Both the position numbers and the translations under genes were made by a program. This document shows positions 1,855-62,858 of a DNA stretch of 64,000 nucleotides, in pieces (the stretch's first letter is position 1; each line of letters opens with the position of its first letter). Under the pieces are notes generated by a model, which was not told the origin of the DNA, ran no database searches, and saw only the letters and a program-made list of their open reading frames with translations. This DNA comes from Bdellovibrio bacteriovorus (GTDB lineage Bacteria; Bdellovibrionota; Bdellovibrionia; Bdellovibrionales; Bdellovibrionaceae), in NCBI RefSeq assembly GCF_001592735.1, contig NZ_LUKE01000002.1:186001-250000 (forward strand). The letters run 5' to 3'.

Positions 1855-3678
1855 CTATTTAAATCCTAAAGGTGCTTCCACAGGATATTCATAAGGCTTC
1901 AAATCATCAAAATTATGATTATTGAGTCCTTCATCCCACGGAAGATGCGGTCCTTTCGGAATACCACTATCACCCAGCTCGCTACGAGCTTTTCGGATCG
2001 CCGCCACCGCTTTATCTTTTCTTTCTAAGAACTCTTTACGTTCTTGAACGGTCAAATCTTTGGTGACCATTTTCCATTCGGCCAAAGAAGTCTTTTCTAA
2101 CTTTTCCGCAGCGTGTTTTGTAAGACCCAGACCACCGAAGTTGGCGACTTCATATTTTTGCTCATTTTTTAAATGGCGAAGTTGTTCTTCCAATTTCTTT
2201 AACTTAGAACCTTGAAACACTCCTTGAGATTTTGCAATCTCCGCATTTGTTTCAGCAATCTGCTTATCAAGTGAGGCCTTTCTTTCTAGGATCATGTTCA
2301 CGCGATCCGGGAAATTCGGGCCCTCGTATCTTCTTTCCTTGCTAAAGGATAGTCTATGGCCAAAGGCAATCGGTCGACCTTCATGGTAAAAGAAATTATC
2401 AACATCACGCCCGGGGTTCATAGTCAGATAATCTTGAAGAAGCAAAAAGTCTGGATTGTTAAAGTTACCCCAAGTCGGAGCACTTCGTGTGTTTTCAACA
2501 AAAAACTGAATAGATCCATCTTGATCTCCCAATTTCTTTTTTACCGTGAGCGGAACCTGGTTTAAGCCTAAGTGCTTATTGACGTTATAAGTTGCCACTT
2601 CACGAGACGCTCGGCCTTTTATATTGGGCTTCCAAATCCCTTGCATGCCATTATCTAAAGTCACTAGCTGCGCTCCACCGGGCGAAACTTCTTTGGCACT
2701 GCTAGGGATGATTTTTGCTTTGCTAAAATCGGCAATCAGTTTTTGCTCAATCTTATCAGCAGCCGCCACCTTCCCTCGCTCGCGCAGTCGCCACGCGGCG
2801 ACTTGAGGATTCGGAACTGAAGCGGTCACAATTTTTTTAGGCCCAATAGAAGTCACTGCCGCGACTTCAGAGACTTCGCCTGCTTTTCTTGCTTTCAATG
2901 CAAGACTGGCCCATTTACTACCTTTGATGACCACACCTGGTGCGGCAGCAATGATCGTGGGATCGACAATACTCGCCACAGCGTAACACGCCATATGCGC
3001 ATAACCAGCCGAATTATAACAGGCATATTTCACGCCCAACTCTTTCATTTTGGCTTCGGCCATGGCCTTTAAAGCTGATGCTGAAAAGTCAAAGCCTCGT
3101 CCATCGCTTTTTGGCATTTGATAGCCCGCTTTTTCAATTTCTTCGCGGTAAGACTTATCTTGAAGTGCTAAGGCGCGAACCTTGTCGCGTTTTCTTGCCA
3201 GATCCCCGGCATAAACGTCTTCCAGTTGCTTAGTATCGACACACGGATATTGAATGCTGCCGTCTTTGTTTTTACATGAAAAGAAAGCTTCTTTAGCCAG
3301 GTTGCGTTTACATTCCATATCCGCATCACAAGCCTCGATGGCTTTAGCACTGTAAGTAAGAAGATCTAAAATTTCGGTCCAATTTTCAATACCCGCTTCT
3401 TTACAAGCTTGCATCCACGTGACCTTTTCAGCTTCTGGTTTGCTGCAGTCCTTGGCATATTTAAGGTCGTCAGGATTTTCCTTAAACCAGGCCTGGCATT
3501 CCTGGGTCATCTTCTGCGCATCACAACCAAACTCTGCAATTTCTTGGATCGCCGATTTTTTGGATGAGGTTAGACAATTAAGACAGATACCGCCTTCAGA
3601 TTCTGTGGCATTCGCCGTAAAGCCCTGAAGAGCCAAAGTACCAAAAACAAAAATGATTTTAAGTAGAGATTGTTTCAT
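1855..3678 (-). CDS. Exported protein with a HipA/FAM20-like kinase-fold region
   Basis: 607 residues. An N-terminal signal peptide (residues 1-24, hydrophobic core then ATA) predicts export. A Cys-rich region follows (paired Cys to about residue 235), which fits an oxidising periplasm. Around residues 325-450 the pattern resembles bacterial FAM20C/HipA/PI4K-like kinases: GIWKPN (ATP-binding Lys), then SREVATYNVNKHLGLNQVP (the 'REvAay.l...LGl..VP' signature), then QDYLTMNPGRDVDNFF, which matches the 'N.DR..gN' catalytic loop, then IAFGHRLSF where active relatives have 'aiDhg..F'. The metal-binding Asp thus appears to be Gly, so it may be a pseudokinase. The C-terminal part is a charged coiled coil (about 470-570). 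The kinase resemblance is my reading of motifs, not a search result. Single gene with its own start near a GGGG ribosome site. Confidence 0.65.
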   Translation of the reverse strand: MKQSLLKIIFVFGTLALQGFTANATESEGGICLNCLTSSKKSAIQEIAEFGCDAQKMTQECQAWFKENPDDLKYAKDCSKPEAEKVTWMQACKEAGIENWTEILDLLTYSAKAIEACDADMECKRNLAKEAFFSCKNKDGSIQYPCVDTKQLEDVYAGDLARKRDKVRALALQDKSYREEIEKAGYQMPKSDGRGFDFSASALKAMAEAKMKELGVKYACYNSAGYAHMACYAVASIVDPTIIAAAPGVVIKGSKWASLALKARKAGEVSEVAAVTSIGPKKIVTASVPNPQVAAWRLRERGKVAAADKIEQKLIADFSKAKIIPSSAKEVSPGGAQLVTLDNGMQGIWKPNIKGRASREVATYNVNKHLGLNQVPLTVKKKLGDQDGSIQFFVENTRSAPTWGNFNNPDFLLLQDYLTMNPGRDVDNFFYHEGRPIAFGHRLSFSKERRYEGPNFPDRVNMILERKASLDKQIAETNAEIAKSQGVFQGSKLKKLEEQLRHLKNEQKYEVANFGGLGLTKHAAEKLEKTSLAEWKMVTKDLTVQERKEFLERKDKAVAAIRKARSELGDSGIPKGPHLPWDEGLNNHNFDDLKPYEYPVEAPLGFK

Positions 3679-3785
3679 GCCCCTGTATCGGCAAGAGACT
3701 TCCTCACCTTAATGACAGGTAACCGGACACCCGCTAAAAACGCTTCAATGTTTATAAACGGTAAACAATTAGCAAGCCCTAGGTA

Positions 3786-3810
3786 GGGCGCCACGCGATC
3801 GGTGACGCCC
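3786..3810 (-). terminator. Hairpin just downstream of the small exported gene
   Basis: GGGCGCCAC / GTGACGCCC forms a nine-position stem with one G-U pair, starting nine bases after the stop of the minus-strand gene. No strong T tract follows. Confidence 0.4.
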
Positions 3811-3819
3811 TCTAAATGA

Positions 3820-4278
3820 CTATTTTGCCAGGCAAGAAATCTTAACGGACTGGGATCTGTAAGATTTTGCTTCTAGCTCGCATTGAAGAAGAACTGAAGA
3901 AAAACGAGCCGTATTTGAACGATATTCGTTATTTTCGTCAAAGTTCGTTGATTGCCCTTCGAGATAAGGAATGACCACTAAAAAAGCACGACTTTCGAAG
4001 CTATCCACGGGATGGCCATTGATGACCTGGTCTGTCTGCACAACCTGGATGGCGTCTAAAGACGTGACTTGCATATTTTCTAGCGCTTTTTGGATCGTAC
4101 TTCCCTTGATGTGGCTTTGCTTAACGACGTAGGTCTTCACTGACTCTGCTCTTAATCTTTCGATCGCATCTATACTGTTTTCAGAGGAACCAATCTGCCC
4201 CGGACCAGCAAAAACAACGCTTGCCGTTAACATCGCGACAGCCATCACAAGACATTTTGTTTGATTTAGGATTTTCAT
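3820..4278 (-). CDS. Small exported protein, 'AGxGxIGS' N-terminus
   Basis: 152 residues. The signal peptide is clear: Lys-rich start, hydrophobic MAVAMLTASVVF, cleavage likely after FAG or FA. The mature chain begins GPGQIGSSENS and has two Cys near the C-terminus (LLQCELEAK and KISCLAK) that could form a disulfide. No enzymatic motif is visible. It is divergent from the TIGR02147-type regulator at 4528 with a 249-bp shared upstream region. The mature N-terminus resembles that of the exported protein at 11888, which also sits beside a TIGR02147 regulator. Function unknown. Confidence 0.7.
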   Translation of the reverse strand: MKILNQTKCLVMAVAMLTASVVFAGPGQIGSSENSIDAIERLRAESVKTYVVKQSHIKGSTIQKALENMQVTSLDAIQVVQTDQVINGHPVDSFESRAFLVVIPYLEGQSTNFDENNEYRSNTARFSSVLLQCELEAKSYRSQSVKISCLAK

Positions 4279-4445
4279 AAAATCTCCATTCTTATCAGAT
4301 TAATGAAGTCTGTCTCACCTTGGTGGAAACTTCCTTTACTATGGAAGCGATCATTGCAACCCTTAGTCCGTCTAAAAACTGATTAGGAAACCTCTGGCCA
4401 GAGATATTCTGTTTAAGTTATCGTCATAATCTCTCTTTTTGGGGC

Positions 4446-4471
4446 CTCGTGCAGCGGGAGCTGCACACGAG
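4446..4471. promoter_or_regulatory. Inverted repeat upstream of a TIGR02147 regulator
   Basis: CTCGTG-CAGC / GCTG-CA-CACGAG, a ten-bp stem broken by a two-base bulge, in the divergent region and about 56 bases before the ATG at 4528. It could be an operator or a leader hairpin; position and symmetry are the only evidence. Confidence 0.35.
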
Positions 4472-4527
4472 AACTCTTTGACCTCTTTATTTTCTAGTGT
4501 TGGAATTCTTTTGAAAAGGACTATGAC

Positions 4528-5361
4528 ATGAAAGAATCCACCCTAAAAGTGCCTGTGGTCTTTGACTATCTTGATGTGCTTGCCTATTTAAAGGCTTATT
4601 ACAGCTTCCGCAAAAAAAACCAAAAGCAGTTTTCTTATCAAACGTGGAGCACGGAGCTTAATTTTAAGAGTCGATCTTTTTTGCGAATGATCGTAACTGG
4701 CAAAAAGAAAGTCACTCCAAAGCTGGCAGAAAGTATCGCGCAAAATAATTTCCAAACCAAAGCCGAGAAGGACTATTTTCATTACTTAGTAAAGCACTCT
4801 CAAAGCGCTTCTGCCCGTGAACGGGATCTGTATGCCCAGAAAATGATTGAACTCATCCGCAAACAAACACGTTCGGAAGTGATCAAAGATTCCGATGACT
4901 TTATCTCGCATCCTATTTTACCGCGAATGTTGTCTTTATTTAGCTATAAAGACTTTGAACCTACCGCCACCAATTTCGCCAGAGTTTTGAATATAAATAT
5001 AGCCGACACGCTGGTAGCCCTGGAACTCTTGCAACGCATGGGCCTTGCCAAAAATGAGGGGGATCGCTGGCTCTCTCACGTGGTGACCTTCAAAGTTCCC
5101 GACAACTTCGGCAGCTTTAATCTCACAAAATTTCATGAAAAAAGCCTGGCCGAAGCAATGAAGGCTTTCGAACTTCCGACGGAAGTTCGCCGTTATAAGA
5201 GTCTTCTTTTACCGATGGATACCGAGGGACTTAAAAAATATTTTGAGCTTTTAGATAATTTTTCTGCTGAACAAATGTCCCGTTTTAACTCCGCGACCTG
5301 CCAGGGTAAAAGAGTTTTCCAAGCGAACTTTAATATTTATCCGGTGACGGAGACTCTATAA
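4528..5361 (+). CDS. TIGR02147/DUF4423-family regulator
   Basis: 277 residues of the TIGR02147 family, a putative DNA-binding family abundant in Bdellovibrio and Fibrobacter. The N-terminal 75 residues form the HTH-like part (FDYLDVLAYLKAYYSFRK, then SFLRMIVTGKKKVTPK). The middle carries a second winged-helix-like segment (LPRMLSLFSYKDFEPTA). The C-terminal DUF4423 domain ends in the usual RVFQANFNIYPVTE. It is closely similar along its length to the regulator at 10791, so the two look like paralogues. The start is preceded by AAAAGGA. The likely role is control of the divergent exported protein gene at 3820 or of itself; that is inference. Confidence 0.85.
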   Translation: MKESTLKVPVVFDYLDVLAYLKAYYSFRKKNQKQFSYQTWSTELNFKSRSFLRMIVTGKKKVTPKLAESIAQNNFQTKAEKDYFHYLVKHSQSASARERDLYAQKMIELIRKQTRSEVIKDSDDFISHPILPRMLSLFSYKDFEPTATNFARVLNINIADTLVALELLQRMGLAKNEGDRWLSHVVTFKVPDNFGSFNLTKFHEKSLAEAMKAFELPTEVRRYKSLLLPMDTEGLKKYFELLDNFSAEQMSRFNSATCQGKRVFQANFNIYPVTETL

Positions 5362-5390
5362 ACATAATCAGATGTAGTCCCCGCCCTGGA

Positions 5391-5412
5391 GCAAGGCCCT
5401 CATGGGCCTTGC
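5391..5412. terminator. Bidirectional terminator between convergent genes
   Basis: Perfect 9-bp stem GCAAGGCCC / GGGCCTTGC with a four-base loop TCAT, followed by TTTATT on the plus strand. It lies between the stops at 5361 and 5417. Confidence 0.75.
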
Positions 5413-5416
5413 TTTA

Positions 5417-5752
5417 TTAGTCACCAATCTGAACGTCATCGACCAGTTCGGCAAATTTAGAACCGTTCGGCAGATTTTTAATGCATACGTATACTTGATA
5501 AAGTGCGGAGCCGTGATAGCTTGGCTTGTTGGCATAAGCTGTCACAAGAACCGGGCAAGACGCCGAGGTCTCATTTAAATATTTATAGCCCCAGATATCA
5601 TCAGGGGTCATATCGAAGCGATCATCACCCTGCCCTTGCGAGTAGATTTTGATAACTTCTTCTTGAACTAAAATCTGATCTTGGGATGAAACTTGAGCTT
5701 GGGCGATATTCACTAAAAATATCAATCCTAAAAAAGCGGAGACGAATTTCAT
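5417..5752 (-). CDS. Small exported protein of unknown function
   Basis: 111 residues with a typical signal peptide (MKFVSAFLGLIFLVNIAQAQ, cleavage after AQA). The mature part is about 90 residues, acidic, with two Cys (SCPVLV and VYVCIKN) about 28 residues apart that may form a disulfide. The start is preceded by AAAGGA at good distance. No family recognised. It ends against a bidirectional terminator and converges on the TIGR02147 regulator at 4528. Confidence 0.65.
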   Translation of the reverse strand: MKFVSAFLGLIFLVNIAQAQVSSQDQILVQEEVIKIYSQGQGDDRFDMTPDDIWGYKYLNETSASCPVLVTAYANKPSYHGSALYQVYVCIKNLPNGSKFAELVDDVQIGD

Positions 5753-5867
5753 ATTTTTTCCTTTGCGTTAATGGAATGGCGTCAATCTAAACAACTCCAT
5801 TTCAAAAATCGAGTCAGGATTCGGTCTAAGGAATAAAACAATCGTAACAGGGAAATAAATTCAGCTT

Positions 5868-5888
5868 AACGTCTGAAACTTAGACGTT
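5868..5888 (-). terminator. Hairpin downstream of the KH-protein gene
   Basis: Perfect 7-bp inverted repeat AACGTCT / AGACGTT with a seven-base loop, about 22 bases past the stop of the minus-strand gene at 5911. There is no strong T tract, so it could be a weak terminator or a protein site. Confidence 0.35.
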
Positions 5889-5910
5889 TAATTCTTATAA
5901 ACAGTTTTCA

Positions 5911-6240
5911 TTAAAAAAATCTGTCTTCATCCTTAATCGAGATGATCGCGCGAAACCCCCGTACAGAGGCCATCGCCCCCACCAGAGTGCGAAGCGCGCC
6001 AATATTTTTTCCTTTAGATCCGAGCAATCGGCCAAAATGTTGTTGTTGCGCAATATCCACAAGGTACAGCGTGGTTTTTTCGCCCAACTTGATTTCGACA
6101 GAATATCCTTCGGAAGCACCAATGACCAATCCAATACTTCGCTCTAACGCCTCTCGAATTTCTTCGCGCACTTTCGACAGATCTTCGGAGACACTGGGCG
6201 ATTTAACAATTCGAACGACTTTGACGGCGGACTCACTCAT
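5911..6240 (-). CDS. KH-domain RNA-binding protein (KhpA/YlqC-like)
   Basis: 109 residues. The C-terminal half is a KH domain with the GxxG loop in context: GRLLGSKGKNIGALRTLV, followed by a last strand (GFRAIISIKDEDRFF). This is the hallmark of the KhpA/YlqC family, small RNA-binding proteins implicated elsewhere in cell-division and small-RNA control. The N-terminal 45 residues (VREEIREALERSIGLVIGA, then SVEIKLGEKTTLYLVDI) are longer than in the classical 75-80 residue KhpA. A good ribosome site (GAGAGGT) precedes the ATG. It is a monocistronic gene here, not beside ffh/rpsP as KhpA often is. Confidence 0.75.
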   Translation of the reverse strand: MSESAVKVVRIVKSPSVSEDLSKVREEIREALERSIGLVIGASEGYSVEIKLGEKTTLYLVDIAQQQHFGRLLGSKGKNIGALRTLVGAMASVRGFRAIISIKDEDRFF

Positions 6241-6431
6241 TACGACCTCTCACTTATTTTTAAGCTTGCTGAATAGTTGGCGTAAAATACACAAAAGAAA
6301 ATGGCCCTGATCTTCATAGTGATTATTTTTTATAAACGTAAAGCTCGGTCGGCTGCCGACCAAAGAAATCACGAAAATCTTTATTCGTCGTCATTGAATT
6401 CCGAAGAATATTATCGAACGGAGCGCTGTTT

Positions 6432-7175
6432 ATGAAAAATCACGTTTTGGGACTCTTAGCTTCAGTCCTTATTTACTGCGGCTTGGGATTTTTATCGGGC
6501 TGTAACTCGGGTTACTCTTCGTTTTTAAAGGGATCCATCGCTGAACTAACACCAACACCACCTCCGTCGGAAGAAGAAGAACTCCCCTCTGTCACTTACG
6601 CCAAACTTCCTCGTTTCGGGGTTGTCACCAGAGATTTTCGCGGAAACAATACATCCACTCCCATCACCCCTGAACAAAATCTGCAAATGCTCCACGATAT
6701 TGGAGCCCAAATGGTTCGTCTCGACGTCGCATGGGCCGTTGTTGAAAAAAGCGTGGGCGTTTATGATTTCTCAAACTTAGACCGCTCCTTTTTACCTATG
6801 CGAGCTAAAGGCCTTAAGCTGATGCTAATCTTAGACTATGGCCATCCTACTCACACAGGTGCGTGGAACGCTCCTCCAAAAACAGCCGCGCAATTAGCAA
6901 AATGGTCGGCCTATGTGACCGCTGTGGCAGAGCACTATCATGGTGACGACATCATGTACGAAGTTTGGAATGAACCCAATTTATCAGGATATTGGGGAGG
7001 TTCCCCCAGCGCTGCGGAATACGTCGCCGTCTTAGATGCCGCCACGGCCGCAATTCGCGCCGTGCGCCCGGAGGCTTACATCATCACCGGGGGCCTTTCG
7101 CCCGCAGGTGAAGAAAATGCCCCCAACAGACCAGAAACTCTTCTGACCGTTAAAAACAGAATTAAAATTTTATAA
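6432..7175 (+). pseudogene. Truncated glycoside hydrolase lipoprotein (clan-A TIM barrel, first half)
   Basis: 247 residues. A lipoprotein signal is plain (hydrophobic core, lipobox LSGC at Cys 24). The chain then follows a GH5/GH39-like barrel: GVVTRDF, MVRLDVAWAVVE, LKLMLILDYG, and the acid/base motif YEVWNEPN with its catalytic Glu. The frame stops soon after EAYIITGGLSP, about half-way through the barrel, with an unrelated AT-rich tail. The second half, which would supply the catalytic nucleophile, is absent in all frames downstream that I could read. It is therefore probably inactive and the remnant of a deletion. A short intact carbohydrate-binding protein is the alternative. Confidence 0.6.
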
Positions 7176-7217
7176 ATACAAATACTCGGAAGTATTCTTA
7201 GAGAGCTTGACGACTTG

Positions 7218-7424
7218 ATGGCTCCTTATAACAAAATGAACTGTGGTGAGCTTGTAGCACAATACGACCGCGCCCAATTTCAACGAAAAGAGACTTGCAA
7301 GCAGATCATCGAAGCTCAAAAAGTGCAAATCCGTAACATTTCTGCCGGAAAATACTCAAGCATCTCAGAGGCCAATCGCAAGCTAGATGCTTTGTACAAC
7401 CGTTATGATCGCGAATGTAAGTAA
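7218..7424 (+). CDS. Small hypothetical protein with three cysteines
   Basis: 68 residues from the ATG at 7218 (a TTG directly upstream is also possible). Charged and helical, with Cys in NCGELV, ETCKQII and the C-terminal RECK. No signal peptide and only a weak ribosome site, so it could be the tail of a gene whose 5' part was lost in the same event that truncated the neighbouring glycosidase. No family recognised. Confidence 0.4.
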   Translation: MAPYNKMNCGELVAQYDRAQFQRKETCKQIIEAQKVQIRNISAGKYSSISEANRKLDALYNRYDRECK

Positions 7425-7549
7425 ATAAAAAAGCTAAGGGGGCGGCGCCACCGCTCCCACCTTAAAGGCCGGGACTAGTTTTCGTGGTTTAACTGGTCTT
7501 TGCGTCCAATGTATTGGCATAATAGACCTATCCACCCAAAGTAGGTCAA

Positions 7550-7810
7550 ATGAATGTAGATTGGGACTCTTGGCTTAAGCTCCTGTCCGTCAAAGGACAT
7601 ATTTACGTTGAAATTTTCGCTCATGATCATCGTTATTACTTTTTTAAATTAGAACGAAACGCCGCCATCACGAACGGCGCCGATCTATTAAAGATGATCG
7701 CGGATTATTATCCCCAAGCCAAGCCATCAAGCAGTCCCACCCGTGGCATCAACCCCACGCTGGTACTAAAAGAATCAGATCTTTTTATTTTCCGCCGCTC
7801 TGCGAGTTAA
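7550..7810 (+). CDS. Small hypothetical protein
   Basis: 86 residues, no signal peptide or membrane segment, aromatic-rich first half (VEIFAHDHRYYFFKLE) and a basic end (FIFRRSAS). Its ribosome site is poor (AAGTAGGTCAA). It is followed at nine bases by a strong terminator, which supports a real transcribed unit. No family recognised. Confidence 0.5.
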   Translation: MNVDWDSWLKLLSVKGHIYVEIFAHDHRYYFFKLERNAAITNGADLLKMIADYYPQAKPSSSPTRGINPTLVLKESDLFIFRRSAS

Positions 7811-7818
7811 AGTAAAAA

Positions 7819-7847
7819 AAAGCCATGCAGTCTCCGCGCATGGCTTT
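7819..7847. terminator. Strong bidirectional terminator
   Basis: Perfect 10-bp stem AAAGCCATGC / GCATGGCTTT with a nine-base loop. On the minus strand it runs into a T-rich tract (the plus strand shows AGTAAAAAAAA to its left), and on the plus strand into TTCTT. It serves the converging genes that end at 7810 and 7879. Confidence 0.85.
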
Positions 7848-7878
7848 CTTCTAAGTTAATTTTTTAAATCTATTCGGA

Positions 7879-7998
7879 CTATGTTCCGCCGCGAATCAAG
7901 AATAGGATGATCAAGATCGGAACTGGAATGCCCAGTGCCCATAAAAGAATCCATCCGATAGCGCCTTTAGTATTATTCACAACATCTAGAGCTTTCAT
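7879..7998 (-). CDS. 39-residue single-span membrane protein
   Basis: A short gene of 40 codons with a near-perfect ribosome site (GGAGGAG six bases before ATG). The product is 39 residues: a polar N-terminus (MKALDVVNNTKGA) and one hydrophobic segment, about residues 14-35, containing WILLWALGIP and ILIILFL, then RGGT. It lies 30 bp downstream of, and on the same strand as, the membrane protein gene at 8029, so the two are probably cotranscribed and the small protein may be a partner in the membrane. I believe similar small proteins occur in other proteobacteria but cannot check this. Confidence 0.75.
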   Translation of the reverse strand: MKALDVVNNTKGAIGWILLWALGIPVPILIILFLIRGGT

Positions 7999-8028
7999 GG
8001 CTCCTCCTTCATTATTAAAATCTTTAAT

Positions 8029-8823
8029 TTAAACTTTTCTGCGATAGTCAGGAGAATCTAATTGGCAACGCTTATTACAAACAGCACCCAACATTCCACC
8101 TAAAACAGAGCCGATCATTGCTAGCACGATGCCGACAAATAAACTCCAACCCACGGCTTTAAGCGTTGTTGCCGCTGCTTTGCGAGTTTCTTCCATCGCT
8201 TGATCCATTTTAGCTTTAGCCGCCGCGATTTTTTGATCTGCTTCTTGTGGCGAAATGCCCGCTTGATATGCTAGATAATTTTTAGCACTCTCTTGATCGC
8301 CGCGAATCAGTCTTGAAGCCACACCACGAACAACGTCTTTGGCGTCAGACTTCAGTTTAAGATCGCCCATATTATCCGTGACGATATCTTCCACCAACGG
8401 ACTTTGAGTTGCAGCAGCTGCCCCAGCCCCTGCCACGGCCACAGAAGCACCCAAAGCACTTCCAGCAACTTTACCGATCGTTCCAAGGCCCGACATTGTT
8501 TGGCAAAGAACAATAATTAAAAATAAAGCCCCCACCAAAAGACCTTGCATCACCCCCACAACATCCACCACACGGCGAGAGATACGCGAAGAGTAATAAC
8601 CACCCACAAAGGTCGCTAGCACCAATGCTACGATAATGCTCACACCCGCAAAGATGCCTGCATTTTTAGCTGAAGCTCCGTCGTCCAAGCCAATTCCACC
8701 AAACGCCATTGACAAAGCTAGCACGCCTGCAAAGGTGATGATGGAAATCGCCAGACCCGCTAAAGCCGAACGCCAGCAAACAAGATGTTTATGTGTATGT
8801 TCTGTCGAAGAATCGTAGACCAT
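8029..8823 (-). CDS. Multi-span membrane protein of unknown function
   Basis: 264 residues. Membrane segments appear at about 20-42, 54-73, 89-110 and 222-246, with an Ala/Gly-rich segment about 117-138. A soluble charged stretch lies between about 140 and 215 (AKDVVRGVASRLIRGDQESAKNYLAYQAG). The glycine-zipper-like segments (GMLGA near the C-terminus and GSALGASVAVAGAG in the middle) are typical of proteins that pack tightly in membranes. His residues cluster at the N-terminus (EHTHKH). It is cotranscribed with the 39-residue membrane protein. I cannot assign a family. Confidence 0.65.
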   Translation of the reverse strand: MVYDSSTEHTHKHLVCWRSALAGLAISIITFAGVLALSMAFGGIGLDDGASAKNAGIFAGVSIIVALVLATFVGGYYSSRISRRVVDVVGVMQGLLVGALFLIIVLCQTMSGLGTIGKVAGSALGASVAVAGAGAAAATQSPLVEDIVTDNMGDLKLKSDAKDVVRGVASRLIRGDQESAKNYLAYQAGISPQEADQKIAAAKAKMDQAMEETRKAAATTLKAVGWSLFVGIVLAMIGSVLGGMLGAVCNKRCQLDSPDYRRKV

Positions 8824-9102
8824 TTTTGTGAATCCTTTTTAAGAGTTAAAAAGCTAATCATTAGCCAAATAAACTCCAAAGCAAAAGGAAGGCCAGGGTG
8901 TTTCAGAGGGAGAAAGTACTAATAATCCCAGAAATGGGGCATAACTTCTAAAACTGAGGGACATAATTCCTATTTTTAAAAATTTTGTCTCACCCTGAAA
9001 CAATCCCGATGACCTCTTCATTAAAACTTAACAATCAGCCTCCCGAAATATTTCGCAAGACCGAATAGTGGTTAGGACTTCTTTCACAGCCAAAGGAAAA
9101 TC

Positions 9103-10563
9103 ATGAACGTCGGTCTAAGTTTGAAAACAAAACTTCTTATCTTATGTATGTTTCTAACGCTAGTGGTTGTGGGAGTGGGCGTGATCGGTTACATGGGTAT
9201 CCAAACGCTTTCAAAAGACACCGTGAAAATAGCCAAACAATCTTTGCCAAGCATCAGACTGTCAGACGAAATGTTTCTGAATTACCGACGCGTTCGCATT
9301 ACGTTAAGAACGCTGGGTCTCCCGGGATTGTCTAAAACCGATGCAGATCACGCGGTGGCGGATGCCAAAGATGCTATCGAACAATATGAAGCCAAAGCCG
9401 CTGCCTACGCAGCCAAAGAGATGTCAAAGGAAGAGGCTGAGCTTTATAAACGAGTGACTGAGGCCTGGAGCAACTTTAAAAAAGTGGGTGGCGAGGTCCT
9501 TGAACTTTATGCGAAAGCGACCCCAGAAAGCCACGAGCAAATGATTGAAATCTTTAAGACCACCTGCCCTACCATGGCCCATGAATACACGGCCGCCATT
9601 GAAGGTCTGGTCACTTACCATCAAAACAACGCCGATCATTGGACCACTGAGGCCATCAATGACGCCAATCGCACAAATCAGATTACACTAATCATTATAG
9701 TTTTAGGGGCTTTCTTAGGAATGGGAGCCGGCTCCGTCTTTGCCAATCAAATATCTAAAATCATTATTAAGATTGCTTCTAAAATTCAAAATGGGGCCGA
9801 AAACGTTGCGGCCGCCTCAAGACAGATCTCAGAAAGTGCGGCGACTCTTTCAACCGCCACATCTCAACAAGCCGCTTCGGTCGAAGAAACCAGTGCCACG
9901 ATGGAAGAATTGACCTCGATGGTGACTTTAAACTCTAATAATGCCAAAGAAGCCACTCGCCTTGCACAGGACACACAAAATATCGCTGTTCAAGGTGAAA
10001 TAGAAATTAAACATCTGGTCGCCTCTATCCAAGAGATAGCTGCTGACTCTAAAAAAATTGAAGAGATCACATCCGTTATTGACGATATCGCATTTCAAAC
10101 AAATCTTCTGGCCCTGAATGCCGCCGTTGAAGCCGCGCGCGCGGGCGAGCAAGGAAAAGGTTTCGCCGTCGTCGCTGATGCCGTCCGTACCCTCGCTCAA
10201 AGAAGTGGTGTTGCAGCCAAAGACATCTCCACTCTCATTCATACAAGTGTCGCAAAAATTGAAGCCGGGAGCGCCAAAGCATCTCAGAGCGGTGTAGTTC
10301 TAACGAACATCGTTCAAGCGGTAAAAAAAGTGACAGATCTTAACGGCGAAATATCTAACGCCAGCCAAGAGCAAGCTAACGGCATCGCCCAAATCAGCAC
10401 CGCCGTAAATCAGCTTGATCATGTGACCCAGGAAAACTCTGCTGCGGCGACAGAAGCAGCAAGCTCGTCAGAGCAACTGGATCTTCAAGCCCAAAATTTA
10501 CGCGAGGGCGTCGCGAATCTGCATCAGATCATTACGGGAAGCCCCCTTAAAGAGTCAGCTTAA
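9103..10563 (+). CDS. Methyl-accepting chemotaxis protein
   Basis: 486 residues. First membrane span about 9-31, a periplasmic helical sensor about 35-190 resembling the four-helix-bundle type, and a second span about 193-214. No convincing HAMP signature is visible. The signalling domain follows, with the conserved hairpin tip around residue 330-365: [20 protein letters not shown] then [18 protein letters not shown]. There is no CheR-binding pentapeptide at the C-terminus. A good ribosome site (AAAGGA) precedes the ATG. It is a single gene; the ligand cannot be told from the sequence. Confidence 0.93.
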
Positions 10564-10790
10564 AATCACGGAACTGAAGCGCTGACAAGTCTTCCTCGGC
10601 CCTCTTAGCCAGGAAGACACGCACAGACTGGTATTGTAACCACTAACCGCGCATTCCGGAAAGAACACCAGATCCGTCCCGCGTGCAGCTAAAGCTCTTA
10701 AAGCTCTCAAAGAGTCCAGTTTTATTACCGTGCTCTGCTGGGAGCACAGCATTGAGTTAACAAACAAAAGATAAACGTAAATAATTTGGC

Positions 10791-11654
10791 ATGACTCAAG
10801 AAAAAGTAAAGCTGCCGGATGTATTTGGATATTTAAGCCTTCTTAAATTTCTTCAAGACTATTATCAAGCCCGCAAATCCGCCGAACCAGGATTTTCTTA
10901 TGACGTGTGGGCGACGGAACTGGGTTTTCAAAGTCGATCTTATCTGCGCATGGTCCTTATCGGCCGAAAAAAAGTGTCCGAGGGGTTTATCGAAAAATTC
11001 AACGGTGCCCAAGGTTGGTCCCAGGCAGAAGCTTCTTACTTTTCCATTTTAGCAAAATACAATCAAAGCACCCTGGCCTCTGAAAAACAGCTTTACGGCA
11101 ACAAGCTCATTCAAATTCTAAAAAGTTTCTCTGAACGAAAAACTGTTAAGGACGCGGTCGAATTTTTATCTAAACCTTTGTATGCCCGTCTTTTAGTGAT
11201 GTTAAGCTTTGAGGACATCACCCCCACGGACACCACTTTTGCCCGACTGCTTGGTACCAGTGTCGAGGAAATCAACTCAGCCTTGCAAGTATTAGAGTCT
11301 TTGAAGCTAGCAACTGCTTCTAATGTTGATACAGAGGTTCACTGGCGCCCCAACCAAACAAACTTCGATGTTCCAGATTCCGTAGGCAGTGTTCCCCTAA
11401 TGCATTTTCATAAAACGAGCCTGCAGGATTCTATGGAAGCTTTTGATCAGCCCAAAGACTTACGCCGATTTAAAAGTTTGCTATTACCTTTATCGGCGGA
11501 AGAAATGATACTTTTTCATCAAATGACAGACGAATTTATTTCTCAGCTTTCTGCCCGATTTCAGTCCAATACCTACTCTTCTCGCCGGCTTTTCCAGGTC
11601 AATTTGAACGTGTTTTCAGTGGCCGAACCCCGGGATAAAAAAGAAGCCCCCTAA
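10791..11654 (+). CDS. TIGR02147/DUF4423-family regulator (paralogue of 4528)
   Basis: 287 residues, aligned along its whole length with the regulator at 4528: FGYLSLLKFLQDYYQARK, SYDVWATELGFQSRSYLRMV with GRKKVSE in the HTH region, TPTDTTFARLLGTSVEEIN in the middle, and a C-terminal DUF4423 end RRLFQVNLNVFSVAE. It lies upstream of, and on the same strand as, the exported protein gene at 11888. The order regulator then 'AGNGTIGS' exported protein mirrors the divergent pair 3820/4528. No convincing ribosome site; the ATG is preceded by AATTTGGC. Confidence 0.83.
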   Translation: MTQEKVKLPDVFGYLSLLKFLQDYYQARKSAEPGFSYDVWATELGFQSRSYLRMVLIGRKKVSEGFIEKFNGAQGWSQAEASYFSILAKYNQSTLASEKQLYGNKLIQILKSFSERKTVKDAVEFLSKPLYARLLVMLSFEDITPTDTTFARLLGTSVEEINSALQVLESLKLATASNVDTEVHWRPNQTNFDVPDSVGSVPLMHFHKTSLQDSMEAFDQPKDLRRFKSLLLPLSAEEMILFHQMTDEFISQLSARFQSNTYSSRRLFQVNLNVFSVAEPRDKKEAP

Positions 11655-11887
11655 TCTCCAATCTCGCTCGCCAAATGTGCTCCTCTGGGGGCACAATGAT
11701 CCTTCTTGAGACCTAATTAGACATCTCCGTAAAAAAACTACTCAGAACGCTGATGCCTAAACCAATCTAATCGCCTTGAGGCACGGCATTACCATTGCAC
11801 TCTGCCCTCTTCAAACTTTGAGACTTCGAACCTCCGCATGACTTTTGCGTGTTGGCGACCTCTCGCAAACAAACAAAGGAACTTTTT

Positions 11888-12475
11888 ATGAAAGTTATGA
11901 AGACATTGCTATTAGCGCCCCTGTTTATTTTGGCTACCCACGTCGCCCTAGCGGGTAACGGCACCATTGGTTCATTTTCAAGGTCAGCTCCGTCTCAAAA
12001 TGCCAAGCTGCCGGTAAAAATGGGAGTTAGATCTTTGCCCGTTCGCCAGGTTGAAAGTGATGGACTTGCAAGATCGGGCCAAATCGGCACTTCCGCTGAG
12101 CTTTTTTATATCAAAAACTCAGGATTTAAAAATTACTCTGAATATGAAGTTTATCTAAATCTAAGTCCCAAATTTAAATCCGAAAAAATCCGTTGCGACA
12201 GAGAAGACGATTTTTGCAATGCGCACTTTTACGTCTCTGGAAATAAAGTCATTGCGTGGATCACTAAATCTAATTACGACAACGGAAAATCAGAACAGGC
12301 CAACGTTCAGATTGGTACAATCAACCGCGCCGGAGATGTGACACTCATCCGCCCCATCGTCGAAGCTAAGCTCAACAAACCCACAAGTGCAAATGCCTTA
12401 AGAGGCATGATCACTGGCTTCGGCCCCGGCATGGGCGGTGGTTCACCGGGTTCTTTAAGCGTTTACATCAAATAA
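11888..12475 (+). CDS. Exported protein, 'AGxGxIGS' N-terminus
   Basis: 195 residues from the ATG at 11888, chosen because AAAGGA lies just upstream and a proper signal peptide (MKVMKTLLLAPLFILATHVALA) starts there; an in-frame GTG at 11849 would add 13 charged residues. The mature chain starts GNGTIGSFSRS, has two Cys in KIRCDREDDFC followed by NAHFYVSG, and ends in a Gly-rich stretch. It looks like a beta-rich periplasmic or surface protein. It lies 233 bp after the TIGR02147 regulator. The opposing histidine kinase gene ends 15 bp beyond it. Function unknown. Confidence 0.72.
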   Translation: MKVMKTLLLAPLFILATHVALAGNGTIGSFSRSAPSQNAKLPVKMGVRSLPVRQVESDGLARSGQIGTSAELFYIKNSGFKNYSEYEVYLNLSPKFKSEKIRCDREDDFCNAHFYVSGNKVIAWITKSNYDNGKSEQANVQIGTINRAGDVTLIRPIVEAKLNKPTSANALRGMITGFGPGMGGGSPGSLSVYIK

Positions 12476-12490
12476 ACCGCGAGGCTTATC

Positions 12491-15007
12491 TCATCGCAGC
12501 CGTCTTAAGACGTCAAATAACGAAGTTCGATTGATCGGCTTAGCCAAAAAATCAGAAAAACCAGATTGAAGAGCGCGCTCGCGCTCTTCAATCATGGCGT
12601 GAGCCGTCAAAGCAACGATAGGTCCGGCATAACCTTGAGCCCTTAAGGCTTGAGTCACTTCGTGGCCGTCCATTTTGGGCATCTGAATGTCCATTAAAAT
12701 AAAATCAAATCGAGTTTCTAAGGCTTTTACCATGCCCTCTTGCCCGTCAATGGCGCGTTCTATGGCAGCCCCGGCGTTACGCAAGTATAAATTAAAAAGT
12801 GTCTGGTTATCTTCAGAATCATCGACCACTAAAATCCGCGTGCCGTCCAGCCATAGCTCAGAATTTATCAAAGGAACGGGGGCGGCCAATTCCGAATTAA
12901 AAGACCCCGGGGCCGCTAATTCGTTAACGACCTCGGGACAAATAGACACTTTGAAAGTGCTCCCTTGACCAGGAATGCTTTCAATCAAGTCAAATGTTCC
13001 TCCCAGGGCTTCGGCCAACCTTCGTGTGAGGACCAGCCCCAAGCCGGTGCCGCCAAATTTTCGAGTGGTCGAAACATCGGCCTGATGAAAGGCTTGAAAC
13101 AGATGCTCTTTTTGTTCTGAAGAAATTCCCACACCCGTATCTGCAACAAGAAATTCTAAATTTCCTTTTTCAAATTGCACCCGAACTTTGACTTCCCCTT
13201 TGTCCGTAAACTTAATGGCATTGCCAACGACGTTGTTTAAGATCTGTCTTAATCTTGTCGGATCACTCTTAATGGCCCCTGGGATTTTATCTGATTGCAG
13301 TTCAAAACAAATCCCCTTTTCCTTGGCTCGGAATTCCATCAACGAGCTAAAGTCCGCCAGCAGATCGGGCAAAGAAAATTCGATATGTTCAATCAACATT
13401 TTACCAGCTTCAACTTTGGATAAATCCAAGATGTCGTCGATGATTCGCAACAAATGACTTGAATTGCGATCAATGACATTAAGATACTCGTCCATTTCTT
13501 CCTTGGTAAAGTCTTCGGATCTTAACAATTCACAAAATCCCATGATAGCCCCTAAGGGCGAGCGGATCTCATGGGACATATTCGCTAAAAACGCGCTCTT
13601 AGCACTGTTGGCCTTGTGGGCTTCGTCTTTAGACTCCATGAGTTCTTTTTCTAACATCTTTCTTTCCGTTACATCCAGGGCGGTGGCCACAATCCCATAA
13701 ATCTTACCGTTAGAATCTTGCAAGGCTTGATAAGAAAAACGCACGTAAAAAAGTTTCTTCCGCCCATCGGGCTGCACGAACTCTAACGGTGTATCACCTG
13801 AATAAAAGGGTTCTCCGCTTTGATAAACTTGATCTAAAAGCTTAATTAACCCTTGTGCCGCGGCTTCGGGAACAGCTTCCGCCACGGATCTGCCGCGATG
13901 ATCTGTTCTCCCCCCTAACAATTTATCATGGGCTTCGTTGGTAAATGCATATTTGTGATCAGGGCCCTCAAAAAGTGCGACCCCCACGGGCATCAAGGTC
14001 AGCGACGACTCCAAACGATAGCGGGCATCGGCAACAATTTGATTGGCATTGACCACCGTCTGACGGTGAATGACTTGTTCCGTGACGTCATGGGCTGCGA
14101 CTAAGATGCCTTCTATATTTCCATCCACGTCGCGGGTGGCTTGATAGGAAAAATTTAAAAAAAATGGCTTTAAAGATCCATCTTTCTGGGTCAATTGGAC
14201 CTTGGTTTCATTCCCATGATAAGGTTGACCCGTTTGAAAAACGCCATCCAGAATTTTACCAAAACCTTGTTCCACGGTTTCAGGCAAAACTTCAGCCAAA
14301 GTTTTTCCCACGACCTTTTTGCCGCCGACAAGATTTTTATACGCGGTATTTGCAAAACGGAAGGTGTGATCTTGACCCGTTAAAATGGCAATCGGCTCTG
14401 GCGTTTGCTCTAAGATGCGCATAAAGGTTTCACGTTCCAAAGAAGCCAGCTCGTCCGCGGCAACCTTTGCAATTTCTAAATCCTTTTGTGCCTGCAAAGC
14501 TTTTTCTGATTTTTTTGAAAGCACGCGCATTTCAAGCAAGGTCATCACTTGTTCGGCTAAAATACCAAGAGCTGATTCCTGATCTGGAGTCAGCTTTCTG
14601 GGAGCGTGATCGATCACGCACAATGTTCCGATCTGTTCCCCTGAAGGGGACTTTAGCAGGGCGCCCGCATAAAATAAAAATTTAGATTCGATCACCAGGG
14701 GATTATCCGCAAAGCGCGCATCTTGGCTCGCATCGGGGATTTCAAAAACTTTTTTTTGCTGTAAAATAGCGTGACCACAAAAGGAAATTTCACGTGAAGT
14801 TTCCTTTGCTTCGATACCCACGCGGGATTTAAACCATTGCCGTTTTTCATCGACCAAAGAAACCAAAGCAATGGGGGTTCCACAGATCATAGAAGCCAGG
14901 CTTGTGATATTATCAAAAAGCTTTTCGCCCTCCGTGTCTAGGATATCATAGGACTTTAAAGCTTCAATTCTTTGCTGTTCATTGGGGGGAAACTTAGGCG
15001 GCTGAAT
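12491..15007 (-). CDS. Hybrid sensor histidine kinase (GAF-PAS-PAS-HisKA-HATPase-REC), probable ATT start
   Basis: 838 residues if it starts at the ATT at 15007. Order: GAF (about 20-165, starting NEQQRIEALKSYDILDT), two PAS domains (about 195-320 and 330-450, each with a 'FRFANTAYKNLVG' or 'YAFTNEAHDKLLG' motif), HisKA with the phospho-His near 479 (MSHEIRSPLG), HATPase with NVVGNAIKF near 595 and GGTGLGLVLTRR, and a REC domain with phospho-Asp near 772 (LMDIQMPKMDG). The first ATG (14890) lies inside the GAF domain. Between the upstream stop (15046) and that ATG the frame has no ATG, GTG or TTG, yet it codes for the conserved GAF N-terminus. CGGAG sits five bases before the ATT. No transmembrane segment: a cytoplasmic sensor with internal output, probably part of a phosphorelay. 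Confidence 0.85.
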   Translation of the reverse strand: MQPPKFPPNEQQRIEALKSYDILDTEGEKLFDNITSLASMICGTPIALVSLVDEKRQWFKSRVGIEAKETSREISFCGHAILQQKKVFEIPDASQDARFADNPLVIESKFLFYAGALLKSPSGEQIGTLCVIDHAPRKLTPDQESALGILAEQVMTLLEMRVLSKKSEKALQAQKDLEIAKVAADELASLERETFMRILEQTPEPIAILTGQDHTFRFANTAYKNLVGGKKVVGKTLAEVLPETVEQGFGKILDGVFQTGQPYHGNETKVQLTQKDGSLKPFFLNFSYQATRDVDGNIEGILVAAHDVTEQVIHRQTVVNANQIVADARYRLESSLTLMPVGVALFEGPDHKYAFTNEAHDKLLGGRTDHRGRSVAEAVPEAAAQGLIKLLDQVYQSGEPFYSGDTPLEFVQPDGRKKLFYVRFSYQALQDSNGKIYGIVATALDVTERKMLEKELMESKDEAHKANSAKSAFLANMSHEIRSPLGAIMGFCELLRSEDFTKEEMDEYLNVIDRNSSHLLRIIDDILDLSKVEAGKMLIEHIEFSLPDLLADFSSLMEFRAKEKGICFELQSDKIPGAIKSDPTRLRQILNNVVGNAIKFTDKGEVKVRVQFEKGNLEFLVADTGVGISSEQKEHLFQAFHQADVSTTRKFGGTGLGLVLTRRLAEALGGTFDLIESIPGQGSTFKVSICPEVVNELAAPGSFNSELAAPVPLINSELWLDGTRILVVDDSEDNQTLFNLYLRNAGAAIERAIDGQEGMVKALETRFDFILMDIQMPKMDGHEVTQALRAQGYAGPIVALTAHAMIEERERALQSGFSDFLAKPINRTSLFDVLRRLR

Positions 15008-15078
15008 AAAGACTCCGATTTTTAGCGCATCATAGTGATGATTCTAAAACAGTCAATGAATACGTAAATGGCAGCGGA

Positions 15079-15384
15079 TTAATCAACCTTAACAATTTTA
15101 AATAAATCTATATTTAAACACACGACCTCTTCGGCGTCACCAAAGCCATCCAATCTTGCCGACAAGGACTTAATAAAGTCCTGCAGTTCGGATCTAAAGA
15201 CCTCAAGACCTTTTTTAGAGACTGAAAAGGGAGCCGTGAACATCAATTCCTCATCCCCGATATTTCCCGCTCGATCCATGGCGCGTAAACGCCAATTTTT
15301 ATGGTGTGACGGCAAATAAACGGATCCTTTTGGAACAAAGGTACGACGCGTGCCCATAAAGTAGCCAACTCTCAATAACTTCAT
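15079..15384 (-). CDS. Standalone C-terminal (DUF4423-like) domain of a TIGR02147-type protein
   Basis: 101 residues that align to the last third of the TIGR02147 proteins in this window: FVPKGSVYLPSHHKNW matches the 'VPDNFGSFNLTKFHEKS' region, APFSVSKKGLEVFRSELQDF matches 'LLPMDTEGLKKYFELLDNF', and CLNIDLFKIVK matches the terminal 'QANFNIYPVTE'. The HTH part is missing. It has its own start with GGAAG just upstream. It may be a decayed regulator or a stand-alone effector-binding domain. The adjacent hybrid kinase gene lies 72 bp downstream on the same strand in the opposite order (this gene first). Confidence 0.55.
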   Translation of the reverse strand: MKLLRVGYFMGTRRTFVPKGSVYLPSHHKNWRLRAMDRAGNIGDEELMFTAPFSVSKKGLEVFRSELQDFIKSLSARLDGFGDAEEVVCLNIDLFKIVKVD

Positions 15385-15425
15385 AACTTCCGGAAGTAAT
15401 TATAACCAAATCTCATTCTCTTCAA

Positions 15426-15450
15426 CCGGGCGCCACACCGCCCGGTTTGT
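15426..15450 (+). terminator. Orphan plus-strand terminator
   Basis: Perfect 7-bp GC stem CCGGGCG / CGCCCGG with a six-base loop, followed on the plus strand by TTTGTTTTT. The T tract points rightward, but every gene from 12491 to 17161 is on the minus strand. See findings. Confidence 0.6.
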
Positions 15451-15570
15451 TTTTCAAAAACTCTGGTCGCAAAATTTTAAAAACCTCAAGTCCAAAAATC
15501 AGGAGGCAGATTTCTTGGCCAGTTTAAATTAGATGTGAATGGCAAACTGGGCAGGTCTTCATTTGGAAAA

Positions 15571-16035
15571 CTATTCGCATCGCCCTTCATTAGTGCAACG
15601 ATATCCCGGAGAACAAGATGAATAGTGGCAGTCCCCCGCAGTCGTGCCAATGCGTTCGCACTTTCCACCTACGCACTGATGCTCGCTCAAACAATGGTAG
15701 TTCCCTGAGCATTCCGGAGCTCTATTATTTGCCTGACGGTCCAAACATAGTCTATACGACCGAGCATACGCACGCATTTCTTGAAGATAGTAATCCTGGG
15801 ATTTGGAAACATATTTTCGAGCATGATTTATAAGTTTTTGTGGACTAGAATATTCATCAGAGACTTTTTGCCAAATCGGTCGAGCTTCTTCTGGAGACAT
15901 CTTTGAAATGCTTAACATTAAGCTATAACCTTCGCGGATTTTTTGGTCACTGAGTGGAGCTCGGCCGCAGTCAGCTTGGGAACTGATAGAAAGAAGAAGC
16001 AGGAGCCCCATTAACAATCCTGAAATATAATTCAT
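15571..16035 (-). CDS. Small exported cysteine-rich protein
   Basis: 154 residues from the ATG at 16035, which has a signal peptide right behind it (MNYISGLLMGLLLLLSISSQA) and GAGGAG just upstream; a further 22 in-frame upstream residues look like leader noise. The mature part has a helical first half (YSLMLSISKMSPEEARPIWQ) and a C-terminal knot of about ten Cys in 50 residues (CSGNYHCLSEHQCVGGKC, then CHYSSCSPGYRC). The spacing resembles short disulfide modules in secreted proteins, but I cannot name a family. No catalytic motif. Confidence 0.65.
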   Translation of the reverse strand: MNYISGLLMGLLLLLSISSQADCGRAPLSDQKIREGYSLMLSISKMSPEEARPIWQKVSDEYSSPQKLINHARKYVSKSQDYYLQEMRAYARSYRLCLDRQANNRAPECSGNYHCLSEHQCVGGKCERIGTTAGDCHYSSCSPGYRCTNEGRCE

Positions 16036-16174
16036 AAAATCTCCTCGCGTTAATGGAGGGACGTATATCAGCTCAAGGGGAAAAGCGAAAGAATAGAGCA
16101 CCCTGGGGGTATTCGGTTAGTAATAAATACTCCATCCAACTCCCCCTTAGAATACAGCGCAGTCCGAAAGATCG

Positions 16175-17161
16175 CTACTGCCCGTTTTTCGCAAGTTCAG
16201 TCTTTATCCATTTAACATAAAATGGAACATAGATGTTCGTGCTCTCGTAATATTTATTAAAAATAGAATGAGGGGGTTCACCGCAAGGCTGATTGGTTCC
16301 TGACGAAATAACCCCGATGACCGTAAGGTTTCCTGCGCCATCGCGTAGGTAGGTAGGACCGCCAGAGTCACCTTTGCAAGTTGTATTTCTAGAATAATAT
16401 ATCAACTTAGCTAAGTCGCCATCTAGGCGTGGGTAGAGCCGTCCTTTTGCCTGAGTGTACAGAAGGGGTTTAAAAAACATAAATTGCTCAAGGTACTCCT
16501 CGATCTCTTGCTTCTGAGTTGCATTCAAATTTTTACTTTTAAGCTTCTGCATCAAGGGACCCGCTTCAGGATCCGTTTTCATATAGTCATAGTTTGAAAT
16601 TCCGTTTTCACCAAATCCACTGACCCAAAGAAGATCTTTTTCGGTGACGACAAGCTTTTCTGACGGCAAGCGCACCGGTTTTGCTCCCGCGATGGGACTT
16701 TCCAAAAATGCCACCGCAATATCCCCTTGAATTTTACTGTAGGTATTTACAGAACCTCGGGCATTCTGAACCTTGAATCTGTCACTCTTAACGACCTTGA
16801 CTATTTTTTTAATAATGTATTTTCCGTGTTCCTTAGAAAAAAAACGCACTCCCACGGAGTCAAATCGAGAAGGCTCATCACTAAAGCAGTGCGCGGCCGT
16901 GAGTATTGCGCGAGGAGCAATGACGGTCCCCGTGCAACCCGGGTTCATCCATGACGGATCTTCCTGATTATAACTCACGACGCTGAAAGTGGACTTCGAT
17001 ATAGGATTATCGGGTTTGACGGCGTTTCCCTGATATACAACGGAGTGAGCCATGCTTTCAGATTGTTGAGGTTCTAACTTAATGTTGGGTACGACCATAG
17101 CATGAGCTACAAAACTTTTACTCAACAGTACCGCCAACAAAATCACCAATGATCGACTCAT
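16175..17161 (-). CDS. Exported trypsin-like serine protease (S1)
   Basis: 328 residues from the ATG at 17161 (ribosome site GAGGAG; an in-frame upstream ATG at 17185 would put eight charged residues before the signal peptide). Signal peptide to about residue 23 (SRSLVILLAVLLSKSFVAHA). The catalytic triad is in place: His in LTAAHC, Asp in GDIAVAFL, Ser in TTCKGDSGGP. A disulfide-type Cys (GCTGTVI) precedes the His. There is an insertion of about 60 residues (MQKLKSKNLNATQKQEIEEY onward) between the Asp and Ser regions. A secreted protease would suit the predatory diet; the substrate is unknown. Confidence 0.88.
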   Translation of the reverse strand: MSRSLVILLAVLLSKSFVAHAMVVPNIKLEPQQSESMAHSVVYQGNAVKPDNPISKSTFSVVSYNQEDPSWMNPGCTGTVIAPRAILTAAHCFSDEPSRFDSVGVRFFSKEHGKYIIKKIVKVVKSDRFKVQNARGSVNTYSKIQGDIAVAFLESPIAGAKPVRLPSEKLVVTEKDLLWVSGFGENGISNYDYMKTDPEAGPLMQKLKSKNLNATQKQEIEEYLEQFMFFKPLLYTQAKGRLYPRLDGDLAKLIYYSRNTTCKGDSGGPTYLRDGAGNLTVIGVISSGTNQPCGEPPHSIFNKYYESTNIYVPFYVKWIKTELAKNGQ

Positions 17162-17371
17162 TTTAGGCTCCTCATTCGACGCCACTATATCAAAAGCTCA
17201 CCTCAAGTTCGCCTGTTACTTTTCTGACGTTGTGACGATCTTCGGCTCTCCAGATTCAATCTATAGGACCTGGCTTCGGCGGTAGGATTCTGTGACAAAA
17301 GGCAGCGACCTCAAAGATGCTCTTCAATAAAAACCGAGGTACATTAAGGCCATCGAATTTTCGGAGGAAGC

Positions 17372-62186: not shown

Positions 62187-62858
62187 TTAGTCTTCGTCTT
62201 CCTCAACCTCTTCAAGGTCGGCAAGCTCTTTGGTGTCTTGCTTCGACTTGTTCGGGTGAAGTTTTTGGTATTCTTTGATCTTAAGTGGATCTGGGCCCAA
62301 CATTAAGAACATGTTCTTACCTTCCATTTTTGGCTGAGATTCAATCATCGCCAAATCATTCACGAACTCGATACACTTTTTCATGACTTCCATACCCAGC
62401 TCTTGATGGGCCATTTCACGTCCCATGAATCTGAGGCTGACTTTCACTTTGTCGCCATCAAGCAAGAATCGGCGCGCATGGTTCATCTTCGTTTCAAAGT
62501 CATGTTGATCTGTGCGCGGACGCATCTGGATCTCTTTGATCGTTACGACAGTTTGTTTTTTACGAGCCGCTGTGGCTTGTTTTTTCTTTTCGTACTTCCA
62601 CTTGCCGTAATCCATGATTTTACAAGTTGGAGGACTTGCCGTAGGAGCAATCTCTAGGAGATCCAATCCACGATCTTCAGCGATGCGAAGAGCTTCAGGC
62701 ACCGTCATCACGCCCAACATATTACCTTCATCATCGATCACGCGGATTTGTTGCGCACGGATCTCACGGTTTACACGCAAAGAGTCTTTAGAGTCTTTCT
62801 TGTTACGGTCAAAGCGTCCACCGCCACCGCCTCTAAAATTACCTTCGAACTTGCTAAT
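62187..62858 (-). CDS. infC: Translation initiation factor IF-3, ATT start
   Basis: About 223 residues from the ATT at 62858, with GGAGGT five bases before it. The internal TTG at 62780 would start at the core (RVNREIRAQQIRVIDDEGNM) and lacks a ribosome site. The ATT start adds a basic Gly/Arg extension (FRGGGGGRFDRNKK). IF3 core: NREIRAQQIRVIDDEGN, DLLEIAPTASPPTCKIMDYG (N-domain), and KVKVSLRFMGREMAHQELG (C-domain). An AUU start is the known device by which IF3 represses its own gene. C-terminal acidic tail (LEEVEEDED) is extra. Lies 20 bp after thrS. Confidence 0.92.
   Translation of the reverse strand: MSKFEGNFRGGGGGRFDRNKKDSKDSLRVNREIRAQQIRVIDDEGNMLGVMTVPEALRIAEDRGLDLLEIAPTASPPTCKIMDYGKWKYEKKKQATAARKKQTVVTIKEIQMRPRTDQHDFETKMNHARRFLLDGDKVKVSLRFMGREMAHQELGMEVMKKCIEFVNDLAMIESQPKMEGKNMFLMLGPDPLKIKEYQKLHPNKSKQDTKELADLEEVEEDED

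Follow-up and report, generated by a model that had tools for sequence, protein, structure and literature searches.

Where does translation begin in a long open frame whose conserved N-terminus lies upstream of its first ordinary start codon? The question is raised by a kinase gene in the window, which is the whole stretch of 64,000 nucleotides of DNA from the predatory bacterium Bdellovibrio bacteriovorus that was analysed. On the minus strand, the kinase frame opens after the TAG at 15046-15044 and runs to a stop at 12491, and from the upstream stop to the ATG at 14890, the first canonical codon, it contains no ATG, GTG, or TTG, just as an earlier note on this DNA had claimed. To our knowledge, few established bacterial genes have AUU starts, and the kinase is presented here as a fresh candidate for this small known class, its proposed start at an ATT being credible and well placed.

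The kinase frame and its candidate start codons

12491..15007, minus strand: hybrid histidine kinase of 838 aa, GAF-PAS-PAS-HisKA-HATPase_c-REC (open frame from ATT 15007; Pfam domains above curated cut-offs)
15005..15007, minus strand: candidate start codon ATT (aligned without gaps to a canonical start in most homologs)
14888..14890, minus strand: first canonical in-frame ATG, judged not to be the start (residue 40, within the GAF match)

The frame encodes IQPPKFPPNEQQRIEALKSYDILDT on translation, and the protein was classed as a hybrid histidine kinase on finding PF00512 (HisKA), PF02518 (HATPase_c), and PF00072 (receiver) in a single chain, each above the Pfam cut-offs. The gene body is apparently intact, with whole domains, no other damage across the 838 codons, and a native-like GC3 of 0.451. 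A separate observation is that the coding sequence of the receiver domain contains an inverted repeat with perfect 13-bp arms, GATTGAAGAGCGC-GAGC-GCGCTCTTCAATC, with T-rich bases after it (12564-12593, minus strand).

The strongest evidence on the start is the register of homologs. Sequences homologous to the N-terminal GAF region (n = 107, from the family, order, and phylum) were set against the kinase without gaps, and, with the caveat that counts of start positions among them are not independent because the homologs are related to each other, a canonical start was aligned exactly with ATT 15007 in 89 (82 ATG, 4 GTG, and 3 TTG), while no alternative offset in the range -10 to +20 accounted for more than 10 of the 107. 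In 72 of the homologs, the region from the upstream stop to codon +12 offers just one canonical start, and in 59 of these it falls at the ATT 15007 codon. The typical N-terminus of the relatives, MKKAPIPxNExxRL...ILDT, has its counterpart in (M)QPPKFPPNEQQRI...ILDT when the kinase is read from the ATT. In the two paralogs that this genome contains, the start is an ATG, in one (L002) exactly in register with ATT 15007 and in the other (L053) one codon earlier. Taken together with a Shine-Dalgarno (SD)-like site and the lack of normal starts, this register makes ATT 15007 the very probable start of the kinase.

As the first canonical codon, ATG 14890 is the choice expected of a gene caller, and initiation there would yield a protein of 799 aa. 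This alternative is nevertheless highly improbable, since the codon has no SD-like site (-1.5 kcal/mol) and the homologs start upstream of the corresponding position. AUU starts are missed by gene callers, and a kinase called from ATG 14890 would lose 39 residues from its sensor domain, among them the beginning of the GAF match, which spans residues 28-156.

Candidate initiation signals and comparison with infC

15013..15016, minus strand: SD-like GGAG, 5 nt 5' of the ATT (read from the sequence; duplex with the anti-SD at -6.1 kcal/mol)
15029..15056, minus strand: promoter-like TTGACT-16-TATGAT (a consensus match only, 10/12)
62187..62858, minus strand: infC, encoding IF3, with an ATT start (PF05198 match; GGAGG before the ATT)

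The earlier note had placed CGGAG five bases 5' of the ATT and an infC gene with an ATT start in the same window; both were confirmed, the former as CGGAG at 15017-15013, TCTTT, and ATT at 15007-15005, and the latter at 62858 on the minus strand. The duplex energy of the kinase site is matched by about 6% of random positions and, among 35 genes of the window, ranks close to the upper third. Among seven candidate codons, canonical and near-cognate, from the stop to 14890, an SD-like site was found solely at ATT 15007, the energies at the other non-canonical candidates being about 0; ATC 15019, ATT 14968, and the other near-cognates were rejected as kinase starts for want of such a site. A frameshift concealing a normal start was likewise rejected, as the other two upstream frames contain none in register.

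Promoter-like sites equal in quality to that upstream of the kinase number seven in the 64 kb, both strands included, and the chance of finding one at the kinase position is about 0.0006, a figure to be taken as a guide only, as the placement range was chosen after the site was seen. A transcript starting 7 bases past the -10 hexamer would have a leader some 16 nt long, with the GGAG inside it. In another upstream frame, ATGATGCGCTAA closes immediately and overlaps the -10-like hexamer; the upstream ATGATG, ending at a TAA, would because of this overlap be absent from the proposed transcript.

The infC gene served as a positive control, given that in both E. coli and Bdellovibrio it resembles the kinase in having an SD ahead of an AUU initiation codon; its AUU start underlies the autoregulation of infC. 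In the window, the infC ATT is preceded by GGAGG at -10.2 kcal/mol, and the ATT together with a GGAGG-type site is in place in every one of the 23 genus genomes that gave a match, so a conserved functional ATT is easily visible in the present data. The kinase differs in both respects, its weaker GGAG preceding an ATT that was seen in one gene of one genome only. As to the annotation of infC itself, the first canonical codon in its frame is TTG 62780, and placing the start there would be a misannotation.

Origin of the ATT and its likely effect on kinase synthesis

None of the 107 homologs lacks a normal start codon, and on this evidence the kinase ATT is not a family trait. Because both paralogs also begin with ATG, the simplest history would be a one-base change from ATG to ATT (or an error of assembly). 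The account that we favour, and to which we attach considerable confidence, combines the upstream promoter, the GGAG, weak initiation at ATT 15007, and this one-base origin. The ancestral ATG would have become ATT by a single substitution in this lineage; the kinase would be transcribed from the promoter just upstream (15056-15029), and the ribosome would bind the GGAG and initiate with fMet at the ATT with reduced efficiency, giving the predicted N-terminus fMet-QPPKFPPNEQQR. By analogy, IF3 may restrain this start as it would any AUU, with the level of the kinase rising if IF3 activity falls.

AUU starts are weak, and non-canonical starts are repressed by IF3. Lower initiation at the kinase ATT would be expected on general grounds, and sensitivity to IF3 from the chemistry of the codon, but such expectations are no evidence for a regulatory circuit. 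Given the rare ATT in place of the ATG of its relatives, the kinase is therefore probably made at low levels, in analogy with other such genes, and if it is truly made from AUU, it would be a natural example of a signalling gene whose start codon keeps expression low. In S. aureus, AUU and AUA starts yield about 10% of the AUG output in poor medium, and the AUA start of citZ is limited to the NCTC 8325 lineage (PMC13009471); as with the kinase, the non-canonical start is restricted to one lineage and the gene looks normal in other respects. The AUU start of E. coli pcnB, the same codon as in the kinase, limits expression according to Binns and Masters 2002 as cited in PMC13009471, and Streptomyces sigR, like the kinase, is involved in signalling and begins at a non-canonical codon, in this case a GTC through which IF3 represses it (PMC5472188). 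The AUA of citZ was tested with reporters, the effect in pcnB was, as cited, established experimentally, and IF3 repression of sigR was proved by experiment, whereas that of the kinase is a predicted start.

Alternatively, the change from ATG may be a recent and unselected down-mutation, leaving the kinase poorly made or nearly silent and perhaps decaying, which we hold to be a tentative but appreciable possibility. It overlaps with the favoured account, in which the weak start may or may not be selected. The retention of a normal start by every homolog and the ordinary, non-extended SD of the kinase both point this way, but the intact 838-codon frame and domains fit either function or a very recent change, and in other bacteria an AUU preceded by an SD does still support initiation, as the S. 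aureus output attests.

An error of sequencing or assembly, the real codon at 15007 being ATG, GTG, or TTG, would look identical, for the ATT differs by one base from the ancestral ATG and occurs in a single genome. We consider it unlikely, however, as substitution errors are generally rare in polished assemblies, the assembly, in 9 contigs, has a completeness of 100%, and the kinase frame shows no other damage.

The earlier note had gone further and read the locus as an IF3-controlled sensor, in which a selected AUU start would make kinase synthesis track free IF3 and so tie phosphorelay sensing to translation capacity. The ATT start stands on its anatomy and homology; the IF3-controlled relay does not, the ATT having been seen in only one gene of one genome, with normal starts in the 107 homologs and an ordinary 4-base SD. 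Precedents are found in infC autoregulation and in the IF3-repressed GTC of sigR, and the infC of this window has a conserved ATT. Yet no ortholog was found to share the kinase ATT and its SD is not an extended one, both of which argue against a long-selected switch, no homolog has a non-canonical start, and the authors of the sigR study could not show stress-dependent relief of repression even there (PMC5472188). A selected switch of this kind is thus very unlikely, and any link between kinase synthesis and IF3, drawn by analogy, is speculation; if IF3 did set the kinase level, the gene would be a further case, beside sigR, in which the fidelity of initiation tunes signalling.

Genomic setting of the kinase

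Searches of 23 other genus genomes and of the phylum gave no ortholog of the kinase, a scan of GTDB contigs returned distant kinases only, and a pattern search of viral contigs for an ortholog found none. At the DNA level, the kinase has no counterpart in the genus except short kinase-like matches. The window genes between about 1.8 and 17.2 kb have no match in the corresponding regions of three genus relatives. This matchless segment covers at least 15 kb (about 1857-17185) and stops abruptly at the stretch from 17.9 to 25.7 kb, which is syntenic; the kinase therefore lies in an accessory segment, a setting that favours the down-mutation. Elsewhere in the window, a second stretch without match in the three relatives spans about 26-35 kb.

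15079..15384, minus strand: 101-aa C-terminal remnant of a TIGR02147/DUF4423-type regulator, directly upstream of the kinase (similarity search within the genome)

The 101-aa open frame aligns at 47% identity with residues 252-342, the C-terminal third, of a frame of 342 aa at another place in the genome, and is taken to be a truncated remnant because the N-terminal part was sought upstream of it and not found. Its fusion to, or coupling with, the kinase was rejected, as this truncated frame ends 71 bases upstream. The remnant beside the kinase shows that genes have been lost at this locus, and the down-mutation reading thereby stays alive. Further upstream, between the gene at 15571-16101 and the kinase locus, lies a terminator-like hairpin of 9 pairs (15424-15447), after which the minus strand carries TTGAAG-15-TATAAT.
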